DNA from: Caenorhabditis elegans
Taxonomy: Eukaryota; Nematoda; Chromadorea; Rhabditida; Rhabditidae
Length of the DNA: 64,000 nucleotides
Assembly: GCF_000002985.6 (NCBI RefSeq)
Contig: NC_003282.8
Coordinates: 1,240,001 to 1,304,000 of the forward strand
Direction: 5' to 3'
The position numbers were made by a program, and so were the translations under genes. The notes below the pieces were generated by a model. That model was not told the DNA's origin and searched no databases. It saw nothing but the letters and a program-made list of their open reading frames with translations. Positions 4,301-42,340 of the stretch are shown in pieces (the first letter of the stretch is position 1; the number at the start of each line of letters is the position of its first letter).

Positions 4301-6872
4301 TTATTCACAATAGGGCAGCCAGTCATTTGGAATTCTGAAATATCATTAATTTTTCATATTGCTCGTTAATATGAGAATAATACACTTATTACCCTGCACA
4401 ATGAATTCTGATCTGTATTATTTGAGGTATACTTGTTGAATAGTTATACTGCAATTTCATAGTGTTAACGCCCAGGTAATACTCGATTGCTCCACCATCA
4501 ATAATACTTCTACTTTCGAAAAAATCCTGTAATCATGAACTTTAAAGTGAAGAGCCTTCAAATCTGAGAAGTTTGTCACATTAAGAGTTTTGACTGAATC
4601 ACACAAAGTTGTATTGTAAAGTACTACACAGAGCGGTTTTTACTACGTGGCCGTAAAATAAGAAAATTCGGTCACCTTCATAACATGGATACGGAACATT
4701 TTCTCAAAAATCGCCACGGTGGAACTATAGAACCCCCTTTTGAGAACAGTCTCGTCAAGTTTCAGAAACATCCCACGTCAAAAATCCCAGATAAATCATT
4801 GGCCGAGTTTTTGATTTTTCTAGGCCACGTAGTAAAAGCCGCTCTGTGACTAGTAATTCAGTATTTAAAATTCAATATCTCACCGTCGAGTTCATTGCCA
4901 AATCACTGCTACCGTTATCCTTACTAAACGATGACAAATCCAATGAATTAAAAGAATCAACAGGCCCTATAACAAATTAAAGTTCTTTGAAAATAGAAAA
5001 TAAAAAAACTCACCATGATCTTGTACCGCTATAGTAGTTATATAAACACCTGAATATGTACCCATCATCGAAGGCAGATTCATGGAGCCTTGCCCGGAGA
5101 CTAGTGGGTTTGCACAGTAACTTGGGTAGGTGGCAGAAAAGTCAGGGAGGTATTTAGTTATCTGTTAAAATACATAGGTTTTCGCAGTTTTATACTAAAC
5201 TAGTTAAGTAAGTTAAGAAAGTACTTCTTCAAAATCCTCATCTTTTCCGCAATTGTTCATTCCATTTGTTTTCGAAGTTAAGTTATAAAGCGCTTTGGAT
5301 CGAGTTCCTCCTGATGGATAAATAGATGTAATTGCATTAACCATTCCATGATGTTGTCGAACAATGGTAACGGTCTTCGAAATATCCGACTCGTTAGGCT
5401 AACGTTTTGAAAAAACCATGCAAACAGCACCGCAGACCGGTATTTCTTTACTGTTGTAGAACTTCTGGAAGTTTTGGTGTGCTTGTAGACCTAATACGCA
5501 AACCTACTTCAATAGTTCTTAAGCTGGAACTTCCTGTCATTGTGTCCCCAAATCCTAACTTTGAATTAGGAAGATGGTCGAGCAAATATGCCGTGGCGTT
5601 TCTGAAGTTTGCAATTAAAATTTACTCGGCAGCGGACTCTGGACTGTGACCATAATTTCTGGGAAGGTGTCTTTTCAATTTTGGGCCAAAGGTTAATAAG
5701 TTGATAAGACTTATAAGCGCATATAATGGGCGACCATTTTAAGTCTACATGAGCAGGCGGAGACGTACGTTTTCTCTGAGTGAGTCATGAAGTTCTCACC
5801 GATCTACTGCTCTCACGTGGTGTCAAAATGCCTATTTTGGTTTGATCTACGTAGATATATGATAATCGCGGTACTTTAGACGAAGATTTCTCAACTGATT
5901 TCGCATGGTTGGTTAAGAGCGTGCTGACGTCACTTTTTTTGGGGAAAAATGCCCGATATTTATAGTACATAGATCAAGCCGTAATGGGACAGCCCGAAAC
6001 CAGGTGTGTTCTGATAAATGTTGGTCCAAAAAATTGACACTCCTAGTGACTTGTAAGTTATGTGGCAGGGTAGGCGATCTAGTCTATCTGGCCAAAATTA
6101 TTACTTGAAATCTGTGAAGTATACGATATCTTCTTCATCACGAACGTCAAATCTTGCAATTGCTATGCCACCGACGTGGAAATTGTTCCATGAATCTTTC
6201 ACAACTTGTGGATCCAAGTCATTAGAGAATGCAAAAAGATATGTCAATGAACCAATTGGTTTGCAAGATGTGTCTTCTGAAACTTATTAAGGTCTGAAAT
6301 GACAAACGGAACTTTTTACCAACCTGTAATAGGGACTTGAGTGGTAGTAACAATTGGAGGTCGGAAAGTTGGTGGAGCAGCAGGATCATAACTGCATACA
6401 AAGAAGTTCTTATCATTTTCTCCAAATGTGCTCCATTTTGAGTTGGCCGAGCTTTCAGCCACATAGTTCTGACCGAGTTGTGTGCCAAAATTTGTATATG
6501 TCACTGGATTTCCGTTATCCCAAACCCAACTAGAAATATTGTTACGGCTCAGACCAATCCAAAAGATTCCGTTGGCAGATCTAAACGCAGTGCGAGCGTA
6601 GGCTATAAAGTATGAAATGTAATTGAATAAGCGTTGAATAGAGTAAGTTACTAACAAGCCAAGAAATTGCTGGTGTACTGATCGGGGACATATGCCAAGT
6701 AAGATGAAATGACTGGATTTTGGTAATGACACCAATTACGAGCATCATTAAATGTCATCTGTTGAGCCACAAACTTGAAGCATAATCCTTTGATATCTAT
6801 GTCTCCACTGTCCAGGCAAGTACTACAGGCATATGATACACATAAAACAAGAGAGAATAGCTGGAGAAACAT
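4301..6872 (-). pseudogene. C-type lectin / VWA-like / CUB-like gene with in-frame TAG (lectin 1)
   Basis: Nine exons on the minus strand are 6872-6656, 6602-6324, 6276-6105, 5601-5508, 5464-5225, 5161-5014, 4966-4884, 4526-4393 and 4334-4301. They match the paralogues in length and phase and would code 466 residues. The parts are a signal peptide (MFLQLFSLVLCVSYACS), a lectin domain (WIGLSRN, KNFFVCSY), a P/T linker, a VWA-like domain and a CUB-like domain ending DWLPYCE. In exon 5 the conserved KRYPN motif reads K-R-TAG-P-N, with the stop at 5401-5399 (codon 276), a C-to-G change from TAC. Splice sites and the other exons remain intact, so the damage looks recent. Exon 5 is 240 nt, so skipping it would keep frame and give a shorter protein. 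A sequence error or a functional truncated lectin is also possible. A GATA site lies 59 bases upstream of the ATG. Confidence 0.65.
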
Positions 6873-13136: not shown

Positions 13137-15684
13137 TTAGTCACAATAGGGTAGCCAATCGGCATTTGGTCTGAATTGGTTTGCACGAAACACCCTGACT
13201 TGCAATGCTTCTTTATTGTTGTTAGAGTAGCTATACCCTAGTTTCATGCTATAAACCGCAGGGCTAAAGTTGTACCATGAACCCAAGAAGAGAATATCCG
13301 GACTCTGAATTTAGTTTTTTTTGGGCGGGACTGCAAATTTAATTTACAGTTGAGTTAGCTGGCAAGTCATCGCCACCTTCTTTATCATTGGACCATGAAA
13401 GATTGGAAGACACGAAAAAGTCACTCGGTCCTGAAAATTTGAAAAGTGGAGAACTGATTTGAAACTAACCGTGATCTTGCACTACAAGGGTTATCCAATA
13501 TACATCTTCGAATGGAACGGTCATTGGCGGTAATTCTATGATGTTTTGTCCAGATACCACTGGATTTGCACAGTAAATTACATACGAAAGAGAGGACATT
13601 GGTACACGATCTATTAACTGAAATAAATTGGTTTGCTACAGATATCCCAAACAATGGACACCCTTGGTGCGCACACGCCGTGCACACCAAGGGTGTCGGT
13701 TTTGGAAATCGAAAAAATCGAAAAATTGGCTGCCCCGACCAAACTAATTTTTGGTAATTAGAAAATTTTCTTTGTTCAACGTTTGGTTGACTAATTGTTG
13801 CATTACAAGTTGTTTTGGATCGGAATAATGGACTTTCCAAAAATTGAGCTGGAAGTTGGAAAATCGAAAAATCGAAAAAAAAAAAACTAATTCGCCTTCA
13901 AATCGTTCCATAAAAAATGTTTGGGTCGGTATTTTGAGTTAAAACATTTTGAAATGGAGCAATCAGTCACCCAGGTGTACAATAAAAAATAAATTTATAT
14001 TATTAGCTGAATTGTTCAGTTTTGAAAATAGTTCAGTTTTTCGCACTGCGCACGGATTTAGAAAAAAAGCAAAAACGTTAAGTCCACCAAACTCACCTTT
14101 CCAGCATAGTTTTCTGTTCCAAAATTACATATTCCATTAGTTCTAGACGTCAGATTGTATATTGCTTTGGACTGAGTCCCTCCTGATGGATTAATGGAAG
14201 AAACGGCGTAAACGATTCCATGATAATACCGAACAAGTGAAACTGTCTTCGAAATGTCCTCATCATTGGGGTAACGTTTTTCAAGAATAAGGCAAACTGA
14301 TCCACAGACGGGTGCTTCTTGATTGTTGTAGAACTTCTTAAAATGGATAAAATTTATATTTGTATTTTCCAGTCTTAAACTAAGCATACTTCTATAGTTT
14401 TAAAAGAATCACTTCCAGTTGTGTTGTCGCCAAATCCTAAACTGGAATCAGGGAGGTGGGAATACAAATATGACTTTGCAAACCTAAAGTAATGAATTAA
14501 AAATATAATTTTTCGTAACTAATATTACTCGAAAAATAGGAAATATGCAATTGCTTCTTGGTTACGCACATCAAATCTTGCAATCGCAAAACGTGAGTAG
14601 GTGCGGTCATGGAACAGCATGTCCCATGTATTTTTAACCACCTGTGGATCCAAATCATTTGAGTATGCGAAAAGAAGGGTCGCTTGATCTCTTTTTGGTT
14701 TGCAAGAATTATTTTCTGAAAAAATATGAGATTAAGTTTGAAATATTATATAAATTACGCGTCACAGGTACTTCCTGAGTCGTTGAAATAGTTGGAGGTG
14801 CGAAAGTTGGTGGAGCAGCAGGATTATAACTGCACACAAAGAAGTTCTTATCACTCTCTCGAAATGAATTCCATTTTGTGTTTACTATGTCTTCAACTAT
14901 ATAATCCTGGTCCAGTTGAGTAACAAAGTTAGTAAAAGCCACCGGACTTCCGTTATCCCATGTAAAGGAATCTGAGGAACTGTTTCGACTCAAACCAATC
15001 CAAAAACTTCCATCGGTTGTTCCGAAAACAGAGCGGGCGTGTGCTACAAATCAAGATGGACGAGTTTGTTACTTTATTTTCTACTCTGCCCTTATGGCAA
15101 TTAAAATTGATATGCCAGAGCACTTTAATTGCCTAGGACATTCAGATATTGTTATCGTGCATAATAGGGCTTTTATGTAGTTCTTGAAACGCCTTCCTGT
15201 CTGCCGGATTCTCGCCTCAATACGCGCCTTATGCTAAAGTATAGGTGAGATTTTCTTCATTTCTTAATTTGATTCTCAACAAATTGGTAGGAATGAGAAA
15301 ATTTGAAATTTGAAAATTCAAGTCTTTAGAACTTCTATATAACTCCTTGAATCTATCCAGTAAATGATGCAGCTTTTCTATATCAATTACATATTGGAGA
15401 AAAATGATCTATTAACATATCAATATCCTAAAAACTTATGGAAACACGTAAAAGAAAGTTGTAAACTTACATGCCAAAAAACTATTGGTGTGCTGATCAG
15501 GAACATATGCTAAATAAGATGAAGTGACTGGATTCTGATAATGACACCAATTACGAGCATCAGTGAATGTCATCTGTTGGGAAACAAATTTGTAGCATAA
15601 TCCTTTGATTTCCTTATCATCATTGTCAAAGCACACTTTGTCGGTATAAAATAGAAATACAAGCAAAATAAATAATAGACACAT
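13137..15684 (-). CDS. C-type lectin / VWA-like / CUB-like secreted protein (lectin 3)
   Basis: Minus-strand exons are 15684-15471, 15043-14759, 14715-14529, 14483-14390, 14336-14097, 13617-13470, 13430-13348 and 13304-13137, giving 472 residues. The ATG at 15684 matches the paralogues' start and opens a signal peptide (MCLLFILLVFLFYTDKV); an in-frame ATG at 15732 would add 16 residues. The lectin domain carries NWCHYQNP, WIGLSRN and KNFFVCSY. The linker is short (PPTFAPP, STTQEVP). The VWA-like part has KRYPNDEDISKTVSLVR and SRTNGICNFG. The CUB-like part ends ADWLPYCD. Unlike its paralogues, the last two coding exons are fused and a leftover TTCAG is read through as coding. Exon 5 is almost identical to that of lectin 4 on the opposite strand, and part of exons 2-3 has a copy at 20252-20510. 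Confidence 0.85.
13657..13697. repeat. Perfect 13-bp stem-loop in lectin 3 intron 5
   Basis: GACACCCTTGGTG and its reverse complement CACCAAGGGTGTC flank a 15-base GC-rich loop that contains further complementary bases. It lies inside the intron between exons 5 and 6 of lectin 3. It may be the core of a small palindromic repeat; no function is evident. Confidence 0.8.
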
Positions 15685-16968
15685 TTGGGATATAAAAATT
15701 ATAAGCTTAATGAAAAACGATTTTTTAGTCATGTTGGCTGCGCTCTTTAGTAAAACTACTAAAACTAAGGAAAACTTAGCGTATTATTATCTGGTGAAAA
15801 GGCGACACCGCCCAGGACTGTAACCAGCAAAACTTAACTCGACACAAAAAGCAACGAAACTTTTTACTCACACTAAAAATGACGTTTAATGCATTCTAAA
15901 CTATCAACACTTCAAGTAAAGCATTAAGATGGTTTAAGGAAAAAGTAATCGAAATAATTTCAGTTAAATCATTTTCTGATTTATGACTATGTGATTCAAA
16001 AAATCAAAAACGTTATTCATTGAATGTTTCGCAACTTTTCTTGGTTTTGCTGATAAATAAGTCAGGAATGTGTAGTTTAAATTTTAATCCTACAGATACG
16101 TGTGTGAAACATGGAATAAAAATCAACTGATGGTACCACAAATATTTTATCAGAGATCAAATGTTCCTCCAACACCTTGTACAGAGCAGGCTACATTTAT
16201 GCGGAGCACATCTCGCGCGAATGGCATTCGATTGAAAATCTCAAAAATAGTTAAACAGCACAAGTTTTATTTCTAACTTTGTAAGAAACAAAATATATTC
16301 TTTGCGAATATCTGCTTGTGCAACGTTCCAGAATGTGCGCAAGTTGAAAATTTTTTGGGCCGCGGCGAAAAATAGTTTGAGTCGAAAAATTGCGTTTTTT
16401 GTTATCTAAAATTATCATAGAAATGTATGTAGAAAACAGATTGTTTTATCTGAAAATAACATTTACTTCTGTTGAAAAGTTTGAAAAGGACCTCAAATTG
16501 TGTCTGAAAGTGGCCGTTGGCCAAAAAAAGTGCCGATTAAAGTTTTTTCGGCAACCGTAACTTTTCGGCACTATTTGAGGACTTTTTCAAATTTTTTCAA
16601 CAAAAATAAATCTTATTTTCGGATAGAACGAACCTTTTTCTACATTTCTGTCAGACTATCATACTGAAATAAGCTGTTTTAAGTGTTTGCGGATCTCGAG
16701 CCGTATGATAGTTTTTACGGTTAGTTCTTAGTTTCGGACTACACTGTTCCGTTTCAATAAATTAGATCAAAAACTAATAAATCAAAAACGTCCTTTATGT
16801 GCAGGATCTTTGCCGCATTTCATTGAATAATTCCATTATTTCCGTGATATTATCAGATACAGTAACCAGTCACAAACATTTCATTCTACTACATACATTT
16901 CAACTGATAACAGTGACAAACCCAATTTAAAGACCAGCTGTTATCACAACTTTTCATTTTGAGATCAA
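15685..16968. other. Divergent intergenic region between lectins 3 and 4
   Basis: No intact gene is seen. At 16152-16200 the sequence GAGATCAAATGTTCCTCCAA resembles the start of lectin 4 exon 1 (GAGATCAAATGTTTCTTCAA) but soon diverges into stops; it may be a relic of another first exon. The right 170 bases (from about 16800) are a promoter block conserved with lectin 5. Confidence 0.5.
16800..16968 (+). promoter_or_regulatory. Promoter block of lectin 4, conserved with lectin 5
   Basis: About 170 bases before the ATG align closely with 21158-21325 before lectin 5, including ACTGATAACAGTGACAAAC and GAGATCAAATG. ACTGATAA at 16903-16910 is a GATA-type site 59 bases before the start. The alignment shows common descent; enhancer function in intestine is inferred from the motif. 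Confidence 0.6.
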
Positions 16969-19344
16969 ATGTTTCTTCAATTGATTCTTTTTCTTTTATC
17001 AGCTTCTCATGCAGATAGTGATTGTATTGACATTGAGGATAAAGAGATTGGAGGATTATGCTACAAATTCGTGAATTTATCCATGGAATTCTATGATGCT
17101 CGTAAATGGTGTCACTACCAGAGTCCAGTCCCTTCATATTTGGCATATGTTCCTGATCTATCCACTAGTAACTTCTTGGCTAGTAAGTTACTAAATTCTT
17201 TGAGATGAGATAAACACCGACATTATAGCTTACGCCCGTGCTGCATTCGAAACCAATCGTTTTTGGATCGGCTTGAGCAGATTCGATTATTTCGATCCCT
17301 ATTTATGGGATAATGGAAGACCGGTTACTTACACTAACTTTGGTACCGGTACAGGAAATTTTGTCGCTGAACACACGCTTAACGGAAAATGGTATCTCTA
17401 TGGAAATGGTGCAAAGAATGTTTTCGTGTGCAGTTACGATCCTGCTGCTCCACCAACTTTCCCTCCACCATTTATTTTGACGACTCGACAAAGTACTATA
17501 ACAAGTTAGGCTTTATATTACTAAAAATAGTCTTAAACAGGTTTTCAGGCGCAAATTCTTGTCAACCAGGCGGGCCTATAAGTTTTTTATTCGCGTACTC
17601 GAATGATCTGGATCCACAAGTGGTAAAGGATTCATGGGATTTGAGCAATATCGATGATTATTCCGGGTACTCGGTATATGCAATCGCAAAATTCGATGTG
17701 CTTGAAGAAGAGGACATTGTGTACTTTTTGGATAAAAAGTAAGTTAATTGGTCAGTTTTTTTAAACTATAGTACTAATGCTTTAGACTTGCTACGACATA
17801 TGTGCACTCGCATCTCTCAAACTCGAGTCTAGGATTTAACGGCACCACTACAGGTAGCGACAGCTTACGAATCATTGAAGTAGGCAATGTTGAAGGAATT
17901 GAATCTTCTCAGTTTTTGAACTTTCAGAAGTTCTTCAACAATAAAGATGTCACCGTTTGCGGATCAGTTTGCCTTATTCTTGAAAAACGTTACCCCAATG
18001 ATGAGGACATTTCGAAGACAGTTTCACTTGTTCGGTATTATCATGGAATCGTTTACGCCGTTTCTTCCATTAATCCATCAGGAGGGACTCAGTCCAAAGC
18101 AATATACAATCTGACGTCTAGAACTAATGGAATATGTAATTTTGGAACCGATTACTATGCTGGAAAGGTGAGTTTGGTGGACTAAACTAAAATATATCGG
18201 TGGAAAAAATACCTTCATCCTTTCCAAACGATATCCTAACGATATTGATATCTCGAATACCGTGTCACTTGTGAGGCTGAATCATGGAACTGTCAATGCA
18301 GTTTGTTCCACAGATCCGTCAGGAGGCAATCAATCCAAAACCATTTACAATCTGACATCTAAAACTAACGGTCTATGTAATTTTGCAAAGGATAAGGATA
18401 TTGCAGGTGTAAGTTATTTTTGTTCAGTTCAGGTGTGAACAATACATAACGAATAGGCCATAATAATAGTAGCACAGAAAGGTGCGGGCAGAGATGTTCC
18501 GAGGAAATCCCATTTTTCTAATGGGTGTGTCAAAAATTTTTTTTCGGAAAGTTATATCGAAATATAAAAAATATTTGAACTTTCTAAAGATAATTCTACT
18601 TTTATTTAACTGAAAAGTTGCTCAAAAACTTCCTTAAAGTCAAAATGTCGCTTTTGTAAATGTGCTGATTGGCACATAACGCAGGGTGAGGGGTAATCGA
18701 AAATTTCCGGCAATCGGCGACAAAACAACACATTTCACCATATTTATGGCCTACCCTGGGTCTATAGCACAGTTAATCAGTTTTTTTTCCAGTTGGTGAC
18801 TTCGGTGCCAATGTTTTATCCACCATACCCAATTTATTGTGCAAATGTGCTAGTCTCTGGGCAAAACATTACGGAGCTGCCTTCAATGTACGTTCCACAG
18901 TCAATAATGTATTATACGGTGTTTGCGTCGGTGGAAGATCACGGTGAGATTGGGGTTTGAATCTGCTTTCAAGTATCAAAAGATTTCAGGACCTCTTGAT
19001 AATTTCCAGTCATTTGATTTTTCATGGTTCAATAGCGATGAGCCACGCTACATTCAACACTTGCAATCTAACTCGACTGTAAGTAGAAAAAAATGTTCTC
19101 TAAAACGGTTTCCACCCATGATGTTTCAGGTCATGGATGGGGTTACGTCCTCTGGCGTGTACTATATAGCTCCGGAGATCTATACCATGAAAGTACAGTA
19201 TAACTACACAAACAAAATGGAACAAGCAATGCAAGTCAGGGTATACACTTATGACGGAGAGTAAGTAGCATATTATTTTTATTAAGAGTTCACAATAAGT
19301 TTTATTCCAGAAATTCTGCGGATTGGATTCCATACTGTGATTAA
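16969..19344 (+). CDS. C-type lectin / VWA-like / CUB-like secreted protein (lectin 4)
   Basis: Exons 16969-17182, 17229-17504, 17549-17738, 17786-17879, 17928-18167, 18793-18943, 18990-19078, 19130-19260 and 19311-19344 join in frame to 472 residues. The signal peptide is MFLQLILFLLSASHADS. The lectin domain has ARKWCHYQSP, WIGLSRF, WDNGRP and KNVFVCSY, again without EPN and WND. The VWA-like region runs from SFLFAYSNDLDPQVVKDSW to NGICNFGTD. The CUB-like region has PYPIYCANV, VEDHG, YTMKVQYNY and DWIPYCD. Exon 5 from about GGATCAGTTTGCC to past its donor is nearly identical to lectin 3, and the 3' part of an older exon 5 remains in intron 5 (about 18187-18411). The CUB-like exon 6 is one codon longer than in the paralogues. 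Confidence 0.85.
18187..18411 (+). pseudogene. Truncated duplicate of lectin 4 exon 5 inside its intron
   Basis: The segment codes TFILSKRYPNDIDISNTV, then SLVRLNHGTVNAVCSTDPSG and NLTSKTNGLCNFAKDKD, followed by an intact GTAAGT donor. It has no stop, but its 5' end and acceptor are missing. Upstream bases TCGGTGGAAAAAATACC align with the start of the conserved exon. It is best read as the older exon 5, displaced when a lectin-3-like copy replaced or invaded it. Confidence 0.7.
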
Positions 19345-20251: not shown

Positions 20252-20510
20252 AAATCATTTGAGTATGCGAAAAGAAGGGTCGCTTGATCTCTTTTTGGTT
20301 TGCAAGAATTATTTCCTGAAAAATATGAGATTAAGTTTGATTAAAAATATTATATAAATAACGCGTCACAGGTACTTCCTGAGTCGTTGAAATAGTCGGA
20401 GGTGCGAAAGTTGGTGGAGCAGCAGGATTATAACTGCACACAAAGAAGTTCTTATCACTCTCTCGATATGAATTCCATTTTGTGTTTACTATGTCTTCCA
20501 CTATATAATT
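20252..20510 (-). pseudogene. Displaced fragment of lectin 3 (part of exons 2-3 with intron 2)
   Basis: This is nearly identical to 14652-14905: the end of exon 2 (CSYNPAAPPTFAPP, STTQEVP), all of intron 2 and the start of exon 3 (NNSCKPKRDQATLLFAYSND). Because the intron is included, the copy was made at DNA level. Differences are a few substitutions and a small insertion. It has no start or stop and is truncated on both sides. Its right edge abuts the TAGGCCTTCC end of the next element. Confidence 0.85.
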
Positions 20511-26875: not shown

Positions 26876-29800
26876 ATGATACTTCAACTATTTCTTCCCC
26901 TTGTTCTTGCTTCATTTGCACACAGTGCGTGTCTTGACAGTCGAGATAAGGAAATCAAAGGGTTATGTTTCACGTTCGTGTCCCAACAGTTGACATTTAA
27001 TGATGCTCGTAATTGGTGTCATTACCAAAATCCAGTCACTTCTTCTTATTTGGCATATGTTCCTGATCAGTACACCAGCAGTTTTTTGGCCTGTGAGTTG
27101 TTAATCTTATCGAAATTGCACTGTCAAATGATAAAAAGAGCCTCATTCGTATTTCTAGCCTTCAAAAAAAGATTACAAAAAAACCATACTAGTATTAGGA
27201 CAACTGTTGATGTGGTGAATGTAATAGAGACTTTGGGATTGAACCGCTATAAAGTGGTGAAACTTTTTCAAACTCTGAAGAACTTTTTTGTGTCCTTTCT
27301 AAAGGCTTTCAACAGAATATTATTAGAAACAAAACACATCTGAGAAAGTTACATGTGAACACTTTATAATTTTTAGCTGACGCTCGAACGGCATTTGAAA
27401 CAAACAGCGGAAGTTTTTGGATTGGACTGAGTCGAAACAGTTCTTCAAGTCCATTCGCTTGGGATAATGGAAGTCCAGTGACTTACACAAACTTCGGCAC
27501 TCAACTCGGTCAAAATTATTTGGCTCAAAGCGTGGTGAACACAAAATGGAATGCATTTGGAGAGAACGACAAGAACTTGTTTGTGTGCAGTTATAGTCCT
27601 GTTGCTCCACCAACTTTTTCACCTCCGAGCATTTCAACAACTCAACAAATTCCTATAACTTTCGCACCTCCATTAGTTTCTACGACTCAAAAAATTACTC
27701 CAGTTATTTCTACAACTCAGAGAATGCCAGTTACAGGTTAGTAAACGTAAAAAGTTATAATCCAATTGCTCCACCAACTTTTTCACCTCCAGTTATTACT
27801 TCGACTCAAGAACCAATAACAGGTTTGTCAAAAACAAAAATTTTTGGATTTATGAACTTCAAAACCAATAAAAACCAGCACTCTTGATTTAAATTATGAG
27901 CGCTCAATCTTCAATAAAGTAAAAATATAAACAAGGATAAGAAATAAATTTATTTTTCTGAAACTTTGATTATACTATCGGCATTTACCTGCAGCTTCTC
28001 GCACCAACTTTAGCTCTCAGCAGCTTTTTGCACAAATTTTGCCAAAAAAAAGTTTTTTTTTTTTTTTTTCATCCAAGTTTAGACAAAGTCTGACTAAAGG
28101 TAAAGTTTTTAAGTGCAAACTATTTATATATCTTTTTTTTCTAATTAAAAGCACATCCGTAAAAAAAGTATTCCGTTGTGATTAAGTTTGAATTAAAAAA
28201 TTTTGCTCAATTTTTGATAGCTTTGTTGTTTTTCTCATGTAATCAAAAATTTGAACTGCTCGAAAAGTTTTTTTTAAATTACTGACTAGCTGGCTCTCCG
28301 CTTGTTTTAGGGGGTTTTTGCGAGTCGTCTTGAAAGATCGGGGTACGGTAGTTGTACACGAGAGTTATTGTAGACGTAAACCGAGACAACTGGTTTTGCA
28401 CAAAATTTATTCATATTCTGAGTAAAAAAGGATTGTCAGTTGATAGAATTGAACCAACGAGCAAAAATTTCTACAGACATGCGCGGACAACCTTAGATGT
28501 AGAGAAGTGATCACTATAGATGTTTTCCAACTTTATTCCAATCATCCGATATAGTAGCAAATATCCGAAAATTTGGAAATACGCCCGCCTCTGCTTCTAA
28601 ATAGCCAGTCACAGTCGACAACTTTTTAGGCAAAATTAGTACCCCTAATTTGTCAGCTCCCTAAATTGAAATTTCAAAGCCTATCTGTTCAGAAGAAAAT
28701 TCTTGCAAGCCAACTGAAAATGGGACAATACTTTTTGCATTTTCAAATGATTACGGTGCGCAAACTGTGAAAAAAGCGTGGGACGGATATCCTTTTAAAG
28801 TTACCCCATGCTCCGGATATGCAATTGCAAGATTTGATGTGCGTGTAGAAGAAAGCATTGTTTATTTCACGGATTTTGGGTATTTATTTTTATCAAAACT
28901 GTTCATTCTTGAAATCAAAATTTAGAGACGCCCAGTCATATGTGTACTCCCATCTTCCTGATTCCAAATTGGGATTTAGAGACAAAAAGGCAGGGAGTGA
29001 CGCACTTCAAATGGTTGAGGTATGTATTTTTTGTCGGATTACAGGAAATTTCATCCAAAACATTCATTTTACTACTTTAAAGAAATTCTACAACAGTAAC
29101 AAAATTCCTATTTGCGGATCAATTGTCTTAATTCTTTTGAAACGTTATCCAAACGATTGGGATATTTCAAAAACAGTATCACTTGTGAGACAACATCATG
29201 GAATAGTTCATGCACTTTGTTCCGCTGATCCATCAGGCGGAACTCAATCAAAAGCGATTCATAGTCTAACTTCCAAAACGAATGGACTGTATAATATTGG
29301 AAAAGGCAGAGACTTTCATAACGTGAGTGACGATACACATTTTTACATTTTACGTACCTTATAACCGTATTTACGCGAGCAATATTAGAGGTGTCGATGG
29401 ATCGAAAAGGGTCGACCCGGAACCCATTGCATAGTTTGGAAACATGATCGCAATTATATTACAGTGCATTTTTTTTTCCACTTGTACAACTTTAAAGGGG
29501 GCACATTTACGCGGAATGGTCCCGCCATTGGTCTCGCCACGCGCTTCAAAAATCAATGGATAACGCGTGGCGAGACCATTCCGCGTAAATGCGCCCCCTT
29601 TAAAGTTGTAGAAGTGGAAAAAAAATGCACTGTATTACAAAAAATAAATTTTATTTCTTCACATTTTTTTGCCGCGTCCCATTTGGGTCCGACATGCGAA
29701 CCGTCGACCCGACCACGACGGGTCGCGGGTCGAAAAAAAGGACGTCCCCGGTGCATAGAAATCAAATTTGAACAGAACGGATCTTGTTTTAAAAATTTAC

Positions 29801-32800
29801 GTCACATACCAGACCGTGGAAATTGGTCCTAATATCACGTAAAGATGTGTTTTTAGTTTGGGTGATAATGAAAAAGATCAAATTTTGACCCAAAGTAAAA
29901 GGGGACGTCCTGATATTGGGGACAAGGAACATCCCTCGTCCCCCAGTATGGGGACGGGAACGCGTCGCCCCCCCCCCCCCCCCCAAAAAAGGAGCGTCTC
30001 CCAAAAGGGTACGACCCTCATGACTGCCCTATGTTCGGTGGAGCGCGTTTGGACCCATCTAGCAACTGAACACGGTAGCACAGAAACTAGATGGCTTGGT
30101 TCATGATACTCAGTCTGAAAACCTATATTGGCTACTATCTCGAAAACTAACCCCAAATTTTATTTTGCGATGCATATGAAAAATGACCGCAAGAAAATTC
30201 TCTATCTTTTCTATTGAGAAATTTTTTGATTGAAACTTTCCTAACCGGTCAAATTAGGGTTTGTTCGGTAGAGCACGTTTGCACTCATCTAGTTTCTGTA
30301 CCACCATGTGAACCACCGTGTTCAATCACGGTGCTTCAGTTGCTAGATGGGTGCGAACGCGCTCCACCGAACAAACGTGCATAACTTGGTCGGGAAGTAC
30401 AAAATCGAAAATTCATCAACAATAAATATAGATAATTTCATCGCGGTCATTTCTTATACAGTGTGGGAAAGTTCTATAGGACCCCCCCTAATTTGAAGGT
30501 TTGAGGAACTTCCGAAAATTTTTTTGAAAAACTGCTAATGCCATTCGTTTTTAAATTGAAAAAAACCTATATACATTTTTTTCCAGAAGTTTATCTCAAA
30601 AACTGAGGTCGCGCTGGAAAAAACGTCAAAATCCAGTGTGAAACTTCTATAGGACCCCCCGTTTTTTTTCACGATTTTTACTAAAATCAACAGATTTTGG
30701 AATTTTTGACAAAGCTCAAATCAAGTTTGAGTTAGAAATGAGTTCAGATAAGCAGTTTTGACTTTAAAAAATTAATACGAAATGTTCTCGTGGGATCTCC
30801 AGACTGGTTCTGATTCTTCCGATCTTTGATGTTCAAGTCTGTTTCAAGCTTCCTGGTGCTCTCGGTAATGCCAAAACTTGATAAACTCTCTTTAACAAGT
30901 TCCTACTAAAATTCCTAGCACACACACCATAAACATTTTTACGCCATCCCCAAGAAACCAGTCAGAAACAGCGTATTAACAAGTTGCAGTTATTTTTGAT
31001 CAACAACAGAACATTCATATACTAAAATCAAGAAAGGATCAATAGTTAATCGGGTTTCCTTGTGTGCGGATGATCTCAAACAGTCTGTCCTCCATTGATC
31101 TGACCAAACTTTTCAGCTGGTTGTCCGGAATAGACTTCCAAGCGTCGAGAATTCCTTGCTTCAACGATGCAACTGTTGGGTAAGTCTTGTTCTGAGCATA
31201 CACGATACGGACAAGAATCCCCCACAAATTTTCGATTGGATTGAGATCAGGACTTCGAGCTGGCCAATCAAGAAGGTTGATCTTCTTGAGCTTGAAATAG
31301 TCGCGGGTTGAGTTGCTCACATGGATTGTCGCATTATCCTGCTGAAATCTAAAGTCTTTTCTGGAGTAGTGACGAAGATATTTGGAGAGCTCCAGTTCCA
31401 AGACGTTCTGATAGTCAGTGCTGTTCATCTTGCTACTGACGAACTGTATCTCAAGCTTCTTCTTCTCCGTGAACGCTCCCCAAACCATCACCGTTCCTCC
31501 TCCAAAATTACGTCTCGAAAAAACCATTGGTTCCTTGCGCAAATCGCGCCAATAGTAGCGGCAACCGTCAGGCCCATCGAGATTGAATTTCTTTTCATCG
31601 GAGAAGACAACCTAAAACAATGATCCTAATTATTCACTCTTGCTTTTTTAAATTCTCACTTTACTCCAATTCGTTCCCATATTGTTCTTAGCAAATTCCA
31701 ATCGCTTGAGTTTATGGTCTGCAGAGAGTAACGGAGCAGGGCGAAGTTTCTGACGAACGATTACACCAGATCGTTTGATGACATTGAGGATGGTCCTTTT
31801 TGAAGCAGACAATTGAAGCTCATTGCGAATATCTCTTGCCGTCTTACAGGAGTTGGAGGCAGCACGAATCACATTTCGTTCGTCACGCACGGAGAGAGCT
31901 TTGCGACGAGGAGCTCTTTTAGATGTACCGTAGCTCACCGGATCCTTCAGATACTCGCGAATACAGTGTCGAGAACGGGAAATTTTCCTACTCATTTCAT
32001 GCAGGGACACATTGAGCAATTTCATAACATCCAGCTGAGCGCGTTCAGTGTCCGAAAGGGCAGATCCTCGAGGCATTGCAAGTTAGACTGCTTTCGAAGT
32101 AAGCTTTCCAGCCTCTATATGTGTGCCACAACACATGCCACAATTCCACATTTAATAATTCACGCAAAAAATAGTAAATAACATCTGTGAGGGACAATTT
32201 AACTTGAAATATTGGTCCCATGGAACCTTGTAATCAAAGAAAAACGATTTGATTCCTGATAAGCCTTCCATTGTTTCCTGCTGCATATTTTGCCAAATCA
32301 GCTTGACTACACAGTCGAAACATCTAAAGTGCGTGCTAGGAATTTTAGTAGGAACTTGTTAAAGAGAGTTTATCAAGTTTTGGCATTACCGAGAGCACCA
32401 GGAAGCTTGAAACAGACTTGAACATCAAAGATCGGAAGAATCAGAACCAGTCTGGAGATCCCACGAGAACATTTCGTATTAATTTTTTAAAGTCAAAGCT
32501 GCTTATATGAACTCATTTCTAACTCAAACTTGATTTGAGCTTTGTCAAAAATTCCAAAATCTGTTGATTTTAGTAAAAATCGTGAAAAAAAACGGGGGGT
32601 CCTATAGAAGTTTCACACTGGATTTTGACGTTTTTTCCAGCGCGACCTCAGTTTTTGAGATAAACTTCTGGAAAAAAATTTATATAGGTTTTTTTCAATT
32701 TAAAAACGAACGGCATTAGCAGTTTTTCGAAAAAATTTTCGGAAGTTCCTCAAACCTTCAAATTAGGGGGGGTCCTATAGAACTTTCCCACACTGTATGC

Positions 32801-36903: not shown

Positions 36904-39436
36904 TCTTGAATAAATTTACCGATTTTCACTACAATTTTCTCCATTTTCTCGATCCTCCGTGTGTGCTAACGATTTTTCTGATCTCTTTCGGGTACTTTTT
37001 GATGTAAAATACTTATTTTTCCGCTTTTTTTTCACTCAATAAATGTTTTTTTTCTATGAAAACAGGTTTTTTTCGTTAAAAAAAAACAAAATTTATAAAA
37101 ACTGTGTATTTTTGGGTGGGTTACGGTAGGTTTTACGCAAAAGTGCAGAATTTGAGCGTTTTTCGATTTTCCAGCGGGAAAACAAAAACAAACATTTTTT
37201 CGCAAAAAAACTGTTTTCAGACAGCAAAATTGTATTTTAACCCGGTAAAAATTAAAATTTCTTGCATTTTTTTGCTTAAAAATTGATTGAAAACAGAAAA
37301 ATTCCCGGCGTGGTACAGTAGTTCTCAGATTCTGCATTTTTGCGTGACAATCTGTGCAAACACCGCGCGGGATTTTTTGAATGAATTAATTATTTTTTTC
37401 GCGGTTTTCATCGTTTTCGCCCATTTTCACCCGATTTTCTTGATTTTTTCGACGTTTTTCCTTCAAAAATCGAATTTTCCGGCAATTAAGCTACGCAAAT
37501 AAACAAAGAATAGCTTATAAATCATCGCCGGGCGTGGTGTGTTTTGTTTGAATTGTCACCCACGATTGTTTGTTTGATTTTTCCTCGAATTTCACGGTTT
37601 CTTGCACTTTTGAGTGCCATTTCATGCGACTTATCAACTGATAAAGCATGGAATTGGAGATTATCTCGAAAAATTTAATTTATTTCGAGAAAAATCCGAC
37701 TTTTCAGAGGTTTTTGTCATTTTGGCCCGCATTGTTCAAATTTTTCAGCTTTTCGTTGTGATAAACCGAAATGACTCATGTTCTGAGCACAAGATCTCAA
37801 TTTTCCAAGAAAACAGCACCAAACAGTTGCGAAATCAACCTCTGGAGCTCCTGCGAGCAGTGGCTCACTGCGCAGAGTGAAAGAGGACGGCTTTTCCGTC
37901 ATTTTTCCACTTTTTTGCAGTGTTTGTGCTCTTCCGTACACGAATCAAGCATCGGTTTCGCTCCACTTGTTGTTTTGCCCTCGAAATCATCTATTTTCGA
38001 TGTTTTCGAGTGGTTTTTGGTCATTTTTCCTGTAAATTATGATGTTTTCTCATAATTTTCGAGAAATTCCGCTTGTTTTCAATGTTGTTTCCGGGTGGTC
38101 TTTTCAGAATATTCACTATGAAAATGAGGATTTTTGGTTTAATTTTCGAAATTTCTCAACGTTCTGGCGAGATTTGTTAGACTTTTCCTAATGTTTGTGA
38201 GTTGCCGATCGTTTTCAAGCTTTCCTAGCGTTTTTTCTTTCCCCGGATTTTTAACTTCAAAATTTGAAATTCTTGCAATTTTGAGTGATTTCTGACGGTT
38301 TTGCTGATTTTTTCTGTAAATTCCAGAGAAATCAAGCGTTTTCCTCAGATTTTTGCAGTTTTTACGGATTTTTCACTTCAAAACTCGCATTTTATGCAAT
38401 TTTAAGTGATTTCTGGCGTTTTTGGAATTTTTTTTTGTAAAATCCAGAGCGTTTCCCATAGTTTTCCGGAATTTTCTTTGCAAAACTGGATTTTTCTACA
38501 ATTTCCAGTTTCTGGCAGTTTAAGATTGATTTTCCAGCAAAATTAAAATTTTTCTTTGAATTTTGGCCATTTTCTTGCGTCCAAATGGGTTTCTAGTAGA
38601 ATATGTGATTTTTAACTGGTTTTTAGTACAAAAATCGTGGTTTTTGGATTTATTTGCTCTAATTTTTTCGTAAAATTAAGTAATTTTAGAATTTTCGACA
38701 CCTTCTTCGCGAGTTTTGGAGGTTTTCACAGTATAATCTCGAAAATTGGATAAATTCCATTTTACGCTCAGATTAATCACATTTGCTTCCGGTTTTCACC
38801 TCGAAAACTCGGGTTTTTTGCAATTTCGCGAAGTTTCTGACGATTTTTGGAATTTCCGACACTTTTTCGACGACTTTTCCAGGAATTTTGGAGATTTTCA
38901 CACTCAAAATAGCAACATTTTAACAGTTTAATCTTGAAAATTGTGCAAATTCCCCCAAATTACGGCGTACATCTGCTCATTTTTCAACTAAATAGACGTC
39001 GTTCATGAATTTAAAATTAGTTGTCTCCGCAATTGGTAGAAACTGAGACGGAGGCAAATTAGTCAGTGTCTCTGGGTGTCTCCATCCCATTCCATCTCGG
39101 AGGGTTCGAAACGACGACGATTAACGAGTGAATGAGAAGAGAAGGAGCCAGTCGGTCGACTGGTAGAGTGTGTCCATACACTCCGAGTGGTTTTCCACAT
39201 TGTTTTCACCCTCTCTCTCTGTCTCAGGACAACACTCTACACATTTGAGTACGTCTTCTGGCGTTCATTTTACTTGAGTGACCACTACTGGTTTTTAGTA
39301 GTCTGGGCTCTTTTTTTGGCCATAATTTAGCTATTTTGAGCTTTTGAAGCCTGATTTTCAGTCGTAAAAAAAATTAGAAATTGGCGAATTTCAAGCTCCG
39401 AAATTTAGAATTTTGAAAAACCCAATTTTTTGCAAA
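36904..39436. other. Non-coding AT-rich stretch
   Basis: No exon could be supported. The stretch is mostly TTTTC/GAAAA-rich sequence typical of C. elegans introns and spacers. A more complex block at 39000-39290 contains TCTCTGGGTGTCTCCATCCC and CCCTCTCTCTCTGTCTCAGG and could be a promoter or non-coding first exon of the downstream plastin gene; this is inference. The open frames of 60-100 codons are not conserved-looking. Confidence 0.5.
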
Positions 39437-42340
39437 TCAGTAAATTGCCGGGATTGAAATTTCCGGCAAATCAGCAAATTGCTGGAATTTAGAATTTCTT
39501 GCAAGTCGGCAAATTGCAGGAATTGAAAATATTTGGCGAATCGGCAAATTGGCGGAATTGAAATTTTCGCAAATCGGCGAATTATTTAAAATTCCAGCAA
39601 ATCGGCAAATTGCCGGAATTGAAGTTTCCGGCAAATCGGCAAATTGCCAGAATTGAAGTTTCCGGCAAACCGGCGAATTATTTAAAATTCCAGCAAATCG
39701 GCAAATTGCCGGAATTGAAATTTCCGGCAAATCGGCAAATTGCCAGAATTGAAGTTTCCGGCAAACCGGCGAATTATTTAAAATTCCAGCAAATCGGCAA
39801 ATTGCCGGAATTGAAATTTCCGGCAAATCGGCAAATTGCCAGAATTGAAATTTCCGGCAAACCGGCGAATTATGTAAAATTCCAGCAAATCGGTAAATTG
39901 CCGGACTTGAAATTTCCGGCAAATCGGCAAATTGCCAAAATTGAAATTTCCGGCAAACCGGCGAATTATTTAAAATTCCAGCAAATCGGTAAATTGCCGG
40001 ACTTGAAATTTCCGGCAAATCGGCAAATTGCCAGAATTGAAGTTTCCGGCAAACCGGCGAATTATTTAAAATTCCAGCAAATCGGTAAATTGCCGGACTT
40101 GAAGTTTCCGGCAAATCGGCAAATTGCCAGAATTGAAGTTTCCGGCAAACCGGCGAATTATGTAAAATTCCAGCAAATCGGTAAATTGCCGGACTTGAAA
40201 TTTCCGGCAAATCAGCAAATTGCTGAAATTTAGAATTTCTTGCAAGTCGGCAAATTGCAGGAATTGAAAATATTTGGCGAATCGGCAAATTGGCGGAATT
40301 GAAATTTTCGCAAATCGGCGAATTATTTAAAATTCCAGCAAATCGGCAAATTGCCGGAATTGAAGTTTCCGGCAAATCGGCAAATTGCCAGAATTGAAGT
40401 TTCCGGCAAACCGGCGAATTATTTAAAATTCCAGCAAATCGGCAAATTGCCGGAATTGAAGTTTCCGGCAAATCGGCAAATTGCCAGAATTGAAGTTTCC
40501 GGCAAACCGGCGAATTATTTAAAATTCCAGCAAATCGGCAAATTGCCGGAATTGAAGTTTCCGGCAAATCGGCAAATTGCCAGAATTGAAGTTTCCGGCA
40601 AACCGGCGAATTATGTAAAATTCCAGCAAATCGGTAAATTGCCGGACTTGAAATTTCCGGCAAATCGGCAAATTGCCAGAATTGAAGTTTCCGGCAAACC
40701 GGCGAATTATTTAAAATTCCAGCAAATCGGTAAATTGCCGGACTTGAAATTTCCGGCAAATCGGCAAATTGCCAGAATTGAAGTTTCCGGCAAACCGGCG
40801 AATTATGTAAAATTCCAGCAAATCGGTAAATTGCCGGACTTGAAATTTCCGGCAAATCAGCAAATTGCTGAAATTTAGAATTTCTTGCAAGTCGGCAAAT
40901 TGCAGGAATTGAAAATATTTGGCGAATCGGCAAATTGGCGGAATTGAAATTTTCGCAAATCGGCGAATTATTTAAAATTCCAGCAAATCGGCAAATTGCC
41001 GGAATTGAAGTTTCCGGCAAATCGGCAAATTGCCAGAATTGAAGTTTCCGGCAAACCGGCGAATTATTTAAAATTCCAGCAAATCGGCAAATTGCCGGAA
41101 TTGAAATTTCCGGCAAATCGGCAAATTGCCAGAATTGAAGTTTCCGGCAAACCGGCGAATTATTTAAAATTCCAGCAAATCGGCAAATTGCCGGAATTGA
41201 AGTTTCCGGCAAATCGGCAAATTGCCAGAATTGAAGTTTCCGGCAAACCGGCGAATTATGTAAAATTCCAGCAAATCGGTAAATTGCCGGACTTGAAATT
41301 TCCGGCAAATCGGCAAATTGCCAGAATTGAAGTTTCCGGCAAACCGGCGAATTATTTAAAATTCCAGCAAATCGGTAAATTGCCGGACTTGAAATTTCCG
41401 GCAAATCGGCAAATTGCCAGAATTGAAGTTTCCGGCAAACCGGCGAATTATGTAAAATTCCAGCAAATCGGTAAATTGCCGGACTTGAAATTTCCGGCAA
41501 ATCAGCAAATTGCTGAAATTTAGAATTTCTTGCAAACCGGCAAATTGCCAGAATTGAAGTTTCCGGCAAACCGGCGAATTATTTAAAATTCCAGCAAATC
41601 GGTAAATTGCCGGACTTGAAATTTCCGGCAAATCAGCAAATTGCCAGAATTGAAGTTTCCGGCAAACCGGCGAATTATGTAAAATTCCAGCAAATCGGTA
41701 AATTGCCGGACTTGAAATTTCCGGCAAATCAGCAAATTGCTGAAATTTAGAATTTCTTGCAAACCGGCAAATTGCCAGAATTGAAGTTTCGGGCAAACCG
41801 GCGAATTATTTAAAATTCCAGCAAATCGGTAAATTGCCGGACTTGAAATTTCCGGCAAATCAGCAAATTGCCAGAATTGAAGTTTCCGGCAAACCGGCGA
41901 ATTATGTAAAATTCCAGCAAATCGGTAAATTGCCGGACTTGAAATTTCCGGCAAATCAGCAAATTGCTGAAATTTAGAATTTCTTGCAAACCGGCAAATT
42001 GCCAGAATTGAAGTTTCGGGCAAACCGGCGAATTATTTAAAATTCCAGCAAATCGGTAAATTGCCGGACTTGAAATTTCCGGCAAATCAGCAAATTGCTG
42101 GAATTTAGAATTTTTGCAAATCAGCAAATTGCCGGAATTGAAAATATTTGGCAAATCGGCAAATTGGCGGAAGTTTAAAATTTCCGGCAAATCGGTAAAT
42201 TGCCGGACTTGAAATTTCCGGCACATCAGCAAATTGCTGGAGTTTAGAATTTTTGCAAATCAGCAAATTGCCGGAATTGAAAATATTTGGCAAATCGGCA
42301 AATTGGCGGAAGTTTAAAATTTCCGGCAAAATGCCAGTTT
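39437..42340. repeat. Hierarchical satellite, 96-bp basic unit
   Basis: About 2.9 kb of GCAAATTGCCGGAATTGAAG-like repeats. The basic unit measures 96 bases (CGGCGAATTAT at 39671, 39767, 39863). Units are arranged in higher-order blocks: 645 bases between 40351 and 40996, 741 bases from 39610 to 40351, and 227 bases at 41356, 41583 and 41810. Each larger block carries a spacer with TAGAATTTCTTGCAAGTCGG. Because 96 is a multiple of three, both strands stay open (710 codons minus, about 207, 175 and 175 plus). The predicted proteins are only the repeat translated and lack any start context or splice structure, so I do not call a gene. Confidence 0.95.

Follow-up and report, generated by a model that had tools for sequence, protein, structure and literature searches.

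A copied exon end beside an apparently displaced original in a C-type lectin gene of Caenorhabditis elegans

The window analysed here is a 64,000-bp stretch of the Caenorhabditis elegans genome (positions 1,240,001-1,304,000 of a 17,493,829-bp contig, which we take to be chromosome IV; the genome totals 100,286,401 bp in 7 contigs), and it contains a cluster of genes from a lectin family linked to immunity. Two of these, lectin 3 and lectin 4 (hereafter L3 and L4), are head-to-head neighbours with complete reading frames in our exon models. L3 occupies 13137-15684 on the minus strand, with 8 exons and a frame intact to the stop, and L4 occupies 16969-19344 on the plus strand, with 9 exons delimited from splice sites and phase (16969-17182, 17229-17504, 17549-17738, 17786-17879, 17928-18167, 18793-18943, 18990-19078, 19130-19260 and 19311-19344) and an intact frame of 472 amino acids. 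The L4 protein belongs to the C-type lectins (clec) by its match to the Pfam domain Lectin_C (PF00059, 34.5 bits vs. a cut-off of 22.6), and carries a DUF7154 domain (Pfam) in its C-terminal part; its middle part, encoded partly by exon 5, had no Pfam match above the cut-off. Between the two genes lies an imperfect palindrome (16427-16645, 75% identity over 226 columns).

The end of exon 5 is almost identical in the two genes. Positions 17961-18183 of L4 (plus strand), which comprise 207 coding nt and the first 16 nt of the following intron including the splice donor GTGAGT, match the reverse complement of L3 14303-14081 (i.e., 14081-14303 on the minus strand, the end of L3 exon 5 and its donor) at 220 of 223 positions, including a perfect run of 188 bases. 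The mismatches fall at 18149, 18152 and 18153 and are followed by 30 more identical bases, the next mismatch is at 18184, and similarity between L3 and L4 is gone after 18187. All three differences lie within 5 bases (18149-18153), as if they came from one multi-base mutation. The limits of the tract are sharp: inside exon 5, identity rises from 25/33 in the native, uncopied head of the L4 exon (17928-17960, plus strand) to 204/207 in the copied coding part, and the rest of the aligned L3/L4 coding sequence is 64% identical (763/1191). By exon, the identities are 0.70, 0.67, 0.60, 0.64, 0.954 (exon 5), 0.61, 0.64, 0.55 and 0.645, and the best 60-nt window outside the tract reaches 52/60. An initial model-made annotation of these letters (the sequence-only reading) had reported a near-identical exon 5 and intron start on opposite strands, which holds, with coordinates a few bases off; the much greater divergence that it saw in the flanking exons (0.55-0.70 vs. 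0.954) and the sharp plateau limited to exon 5 that it expected are both borne out, and high identity in neighbouring exons, which it had named as refuting, does not occur.

The longest identical run obtained by chance was 50 bases in 10,000 codon permutations, vs. 188 observed (45 in a separate set of 20,000 permutations, in which the last exon of L3 was modelled 2 bases wrong). When the first 100 nt of the tract were searched against the genome, two places were found, both at 100% identity, which are L4 and L3 themselves, and a search of the plasmid collection gave no match. A raised-identity tract with background identity on both sides is what ectopic gene conversion leaves, and because the tract includes intron bases, copying from spliced RNA is ruled out. 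At a mutation rate of 2.7e-9 per site per generation over 2 x 223 sites, the tract would be about 0.8 million generations old if its differences represent one mutational event, and about 2.5 million if they represent three.

Downstream of the copied tract, L4 contains the end of another exon 5 (hereafter the relic; 18202-18408, plus strand), 207 nt long and open in frame, which now lies in the predicted intron and is followed by a donor GTAAGT (18409-18414, plus strand) in the context GGT/GTAAGT and at the homologous position. The truncated second exon 5 with an intact donor described in the sequence-only reading is thus present, with the family-like sequence starting at 18202 rather than at 18187 and the coding part ending at 18408; between 18184 and the relic start at 18202, there is no AG that could serve as its acceptor. 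The relic and the copy start at the same Gly codon and have an equal coding length of 207 nt, and the 33-nt head of L4 exon 5 plus the relic gives 240 nt in frame, which is the length of L3 exon 5, so that the relic corresponds exactly to the copied coding part. The relic has the appearance of an older exon-5 end that was displaced, and its open frame and intact donor would fit the expectation for a recent event. Searched against the whole genome, the exon-5 peptide had at least 34 matches, L4 and the relic among them, and among these matches L4 alone has two separate same-strand copies within 1 kb; the remaining close pairs consist of a single broken exon at 1.05 Mb that was matched in overlapping pieces, and of two fragments with stops at 3.95 Mb, 1.3 kb from each other. 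The relic peptide itself gave 32 genome matches at E 10 or better, including itself, with the best other match at 64%.

Over 189 nt, the relic is 73.0% identical to the 29-kb gene, 70.9% to L3 and 69.8% to a gene on chromosome V, followed by other genes of the window (67.2, 64.0, and 62.4%) and two further genes (56.6 and 55.0%). L3 is hence not its closest relative, and a best match to L3, which the sequence-only reading had listed as refuting, does not occur. In the exon-5 tree, the relic is placed beside the chromosome V gene and the 29-kb gene with 48% support and is not tied to L4, and the topology of the flanks is rejected by the exon-5 data (AU 0.023 with the relic as L4, 0.018 with the copy as L4). 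These weak trees neither prove the relic native to L4 nor exclude it, and add nothing on direction.

The copied tract and the relic are separated by an 18-nt filler, AAACTAAAATATATCGGT (18184-18201, plus strand), with the hexamer GGTGGA at both edges (18176-18181 and 18199-18204). When the filler was aligned locally to both strands of 6 nearby regions, all shuffle p-values were 0.18 or higher. Compared with the exon head of the 23-kb gene, the filler matches at 12/18 positions, with shuffle p-values of 0.0036 (best of 27) and 0.013 (profile), and p-values of 0.008 and 0.066 when drawn from 18-mers of the window; with the head of L4's own exon 5 it shares 5/18. The similarity is weak, and whether the filler represents family exon sequence is ambiguous. 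If this likeness is real, the relic would extend 18 nt further upstream, and would there be unlike L4's own exon head.

To evaluate the direction of copying, we compared the tract and its flanks with the paralogues, the flanks being exons 2, 3, 4, the head of exon 5 and exon 6 (two of the nine genes lacked one block). The L4 copy is 69-73% identical to the four other paralogues in the window (189 nt), and the L4 flanks 58-65% identical to the same genes; the corresponding values for L3 are 70-73% in the tract and 64-72% in the flanks. As a whole, the flanking exon parts of L4 are 65.5% identical to L3 and 57-65% to the rest. The relic, at 62-73% to the window paralogues, also lies above the L4 flanks (58-65%), which suggests that exon 5 is probably slightly more conserved in general and makes the identity argument for direction one of degree. 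In the exon-5 peptide search (at least 34 matches), a second match lies beside L4 and none beside L3. Taken together with the displaced exon in L4, the paralogue identities of tract and flanks point to L3 as the donor and to copying from L3 into L4.

In the gene model, the copied donor (18168-18173, plus strand, phase 0) joins the old acceptor before 18793, which is also in phase 0, and the chimeric frame reads through. Splicing from the relic donor in place of the copied one would take translation into an in-frame TAA (18183-18185, plus strand), so that in this model L4 depends on the imported donor. The relic lies within the predicted intron, i.e., former exon sequence would now be spliced out. 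We also considered the relic as a cryptic exon: there are 8 AG sites in 18184-18408, 6 of which would shift the frame, and the two that would keep it give exon starts at 18391 (18 nt) and 18397 (12 nt), preceded by TTTTGCAAAG and AAAGGATAAG, respectively; this candidate was rejected.

The arrangement is, in our judgement, likely to reflect one-sided homologous copying from L3 into L4, followed by non-homologous rejoining, i.e., an insertion with duplication. A break or stalled end would have arisen inside L4 exon 5, at the Cys/Gly codon boundary 17960/17961, and this end would have invaded the homologous spot in the divergently oriented L3, copying ~223 bases that include the end of L3 exon 5, the splice donor and 16 bases of the intron. 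After release from the template, the extended end would not have annealed back but would have been joined, non-homologously and with an 18-bp filler, to the far side of the break. From then on, L4 would use the copied exon end and the copied donor in phase with its old acceptor, the old exon end staying intact and unused in an intron that grew from 384 to 625 bp; on this reading the net gain of L4 is 241 nt (223 + 18) and no target base was lost. A pathway that could produce this outcome is synthesis-dependent strand annealing that fails, with the ends joined by polymerase theta. The left junction lies within continuous homology, and the right junction, where homology is limited to a few bases, contains the filler, with its repeated GGTGGA and no significant local template. 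A copy and a retained original with a common start correspond to what failed strand annealing plus end joining would leave, with the caveat of the filler. The tract with its sharp limits, the relic with its frame and the in-phase gene model are observed; we infer the direction, a single event, this kind of repair and the splicing of L4 as modelled. The sequence-only reading had proposed ectopic copying between inverted paralogues that landed inside the original exon, which our results support, and had supposed that a new donor was built; instead, the donor is L3's own and was brought in by the copy, along with 16 bp from the start of the L3 intron.

The tract length of 223 bp is within the conversion range reported for C. 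elegans. Strict replacing conversion leaves the length of the locus unchanged, whereas here a 207-nt older counterpart is kept and 241 nt are gained; strict "conversion" would be the wrong class because the old L4 sequence appears displaced rather than replaced, an assignment that depends on the relic being L4's own exon end, which the trees left undecided. The weak points of one-sided copying and rejoining are the filler's template, the filler's family likeness, the trees, the three clustered mismatches at 18149-18153, and the rarity in wild-type worms of the duplications described from helq-1 mutants.

Alternatively, the locus could have been built in two steps, one that gave L4 a partly truncated tandem copy of exon 5 (the relic) and a later, ordinary conversion from L3 that extended 16 bp into the intron. 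This would accommodate the weakly family-like filler (12/18 to the exon head of the 23-kb gene) and the failure of the relic and the L4 flanks to group in trees, and a displaced exon-2 end also occurs in another gene of the cluster, where the search for a near-identical source gave none. On the other hand, the truncation of the relic would have to match the left codon of the conversion by chance (~3% by our estimate, if uniform over 240 nt), L4's own exon-5 end would be gone, and the exact 207 nt and frame of the relic would be coincidental, so that we consider two steps unlikely. Similarly unlikely is that the inverted paralogues exchanged templates at a replication fork, a switch mediated by microhomology and requiring no double-strand break. 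It would be favoured by the head-to-head arrangement of L3 and L4 with the imperfect palindrome (16427-16645) between them, and by near-identical short copies of L3 occurring twice in the cluster, but the left junction is in homologous register and not at a short microhomology; from sequence alone, this can hardly be separated from one-sided copying and rejoining.

The reverse direction, with L4 donating to L3, is very improbable: the tract by itself has no direction, but such a transfer would leave the relic in L4 unexplained, and the L3 tract is about as close to the paralogues as the L3 flanks, whereas the L4 tract clearly exceeds the L4 flanks in this respect. An assembly can be misled by inverted blocks that are nearly identical and 3.7 kb apart, yet an artefact is the least probable explanation of all, since the genome is in 7 contigs, as fits a finished reference, the tract is short, and the best other genome match of the relic is only 64%.

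Several known systems share features with this locus. Interlocus conversion is known from neighbouring paralogues of Caenorhabditis, also inverted ones, and can reach into introns, with C. elegans tracts of 12-2,958 bp (mean 117) and conversion into an intron in 15% of the detectable events of a study cited there (PMC3966223). The L4 copy resembles these events in being short and non-reciprocal, in involving neighbouring inverted paralogues, in having a length within the reported range and in reaching the intron, and differs from them in that L4 sequence appears displaced and kept, and in that one junction is non-homologous. When abrogated strand-annealing intermediates are end-joined in C. 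elegans helq-1 mutants, the copied stretch is duplicated, with microhomology and occasional templated insertions at the junctions, and such tandem duplications are rare in wild-type worms (PMC8654963). The common start of the copies, the single scarred junction and sizes from ~100 bp are shared with L4, whereas the L4 template would be a diverged paralogue and not the sister, in no known mutant background. The helq-1 copies are alike because the template is the sister, and L4 would be a chimera because its template is a paralogue that is 64% identical in the rest of the gene.

In class 2 templated sequence insertions of human DNA, a patch copied from elsewhere closes a break (PMC5110952); these are found at seemingly random sites, unlike the L4 insert, which sits at the homologous position of a paralogue. 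As in intronization or intron gain by tandem duplication (PMC3443670), former exon sequence became intron in the L4 model, but no intron was gained and no splice site arose by point mutation: the donor was imported and an existing intron grew. The L4-type layout was not found in the available part of PMC3449122, and among the matches listed for the open-access literature (titles and abstract starts), none described a displaced exon of the L4 kind. Relative to known conversion, it is unusual that a displaced original survives and that a donor was imported.

Ordinary gene conversion erases the prior state, whereas L4 keeps the donor, the copy, the scar and the apparent displaced original together. 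Because all four survive, direction, breakpoints and splicing effect would be readable from one genome, and the locus illustrates a possible route by which part of an exon becomes intron in one step with the reading frame kept. Exchange of parts of genes may matter in the lectin family. It is tempting, if rather doubtful, to speculate that exon ends in this cluster are repeatedly swapped through one-sided repair templated by paralogues, and that the L4 allele may still segregate in the wild. Since an exon end would travel with its own donor, a homologous insertion would then give an instant working chimera and turn the old end into intron, and intact relics would, if this is true, give the age and direction of exchanges that stay hidden in ordinary conversion.

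Elsewhere in the cluster, a second copy of L3 sequence, which is separate from the L4 event and has the same source gene, lies between genes at 20252-20509 (minus strand, same orientation as L3). It derives from 14652-14905 (95.8% over 259 columns), and its 258 bp span parts of exons 2 and 3 and the intron between them. On the right it borders directly on a repeat that has 21 other matches in the genome, and the inverted sequences GGAAGGCCTAAT and ATTAGGCCTTCC flank it. Within 27382-27869, the 29-kb lectin gene has a displaced exon-2 end at 27753-27822 behind a different in-frame exon-2 end, in the same layout as L4 exon 5, with a possible donor GTTTGT after it. This displaced end is closest to the chromosome V paralogue; the segment 27753-27869 is 87.5% identical to the chromosome V gene over 120 columns. 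The search for a source of the intervening new exon-2 end gave nothing near-identical, the best other matches being 88% over 56 nt and 92% over 38 nt. Together, 20252-20509 and 27753-27822 suggest, rather than show, recurrent short templated insertions in the lectin cluster.

A family-wide search for further tracts was made with seeds, given that BLAST pieces of at least 92% identity miss the L4 tract. It returned many high-identity blocks in the clusters at 3.92-3.97 Mb and 4.15-4.16 Mb and on chromosome I, none of which was counted as conversion; the 3.923/3.931 Mb pair, for instance, has four separate blocks of 95 to 98%, which make it look like a recent duplicate. Within the window, exon 5 of the 5-kb lectin gene (5240-5437, minus strand) contains an in-frame TAG, and this gene may be a pseudogene. 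For the 29-kb lectin gene, no match to exon 6 was found in 27000-31500. Downstream of this gene lies an inverted repeat of 470 bp (30456-30925 and 32329-32798, 98.7% identical), and a long run of near-identical direct repeats occupies 39424-42330.
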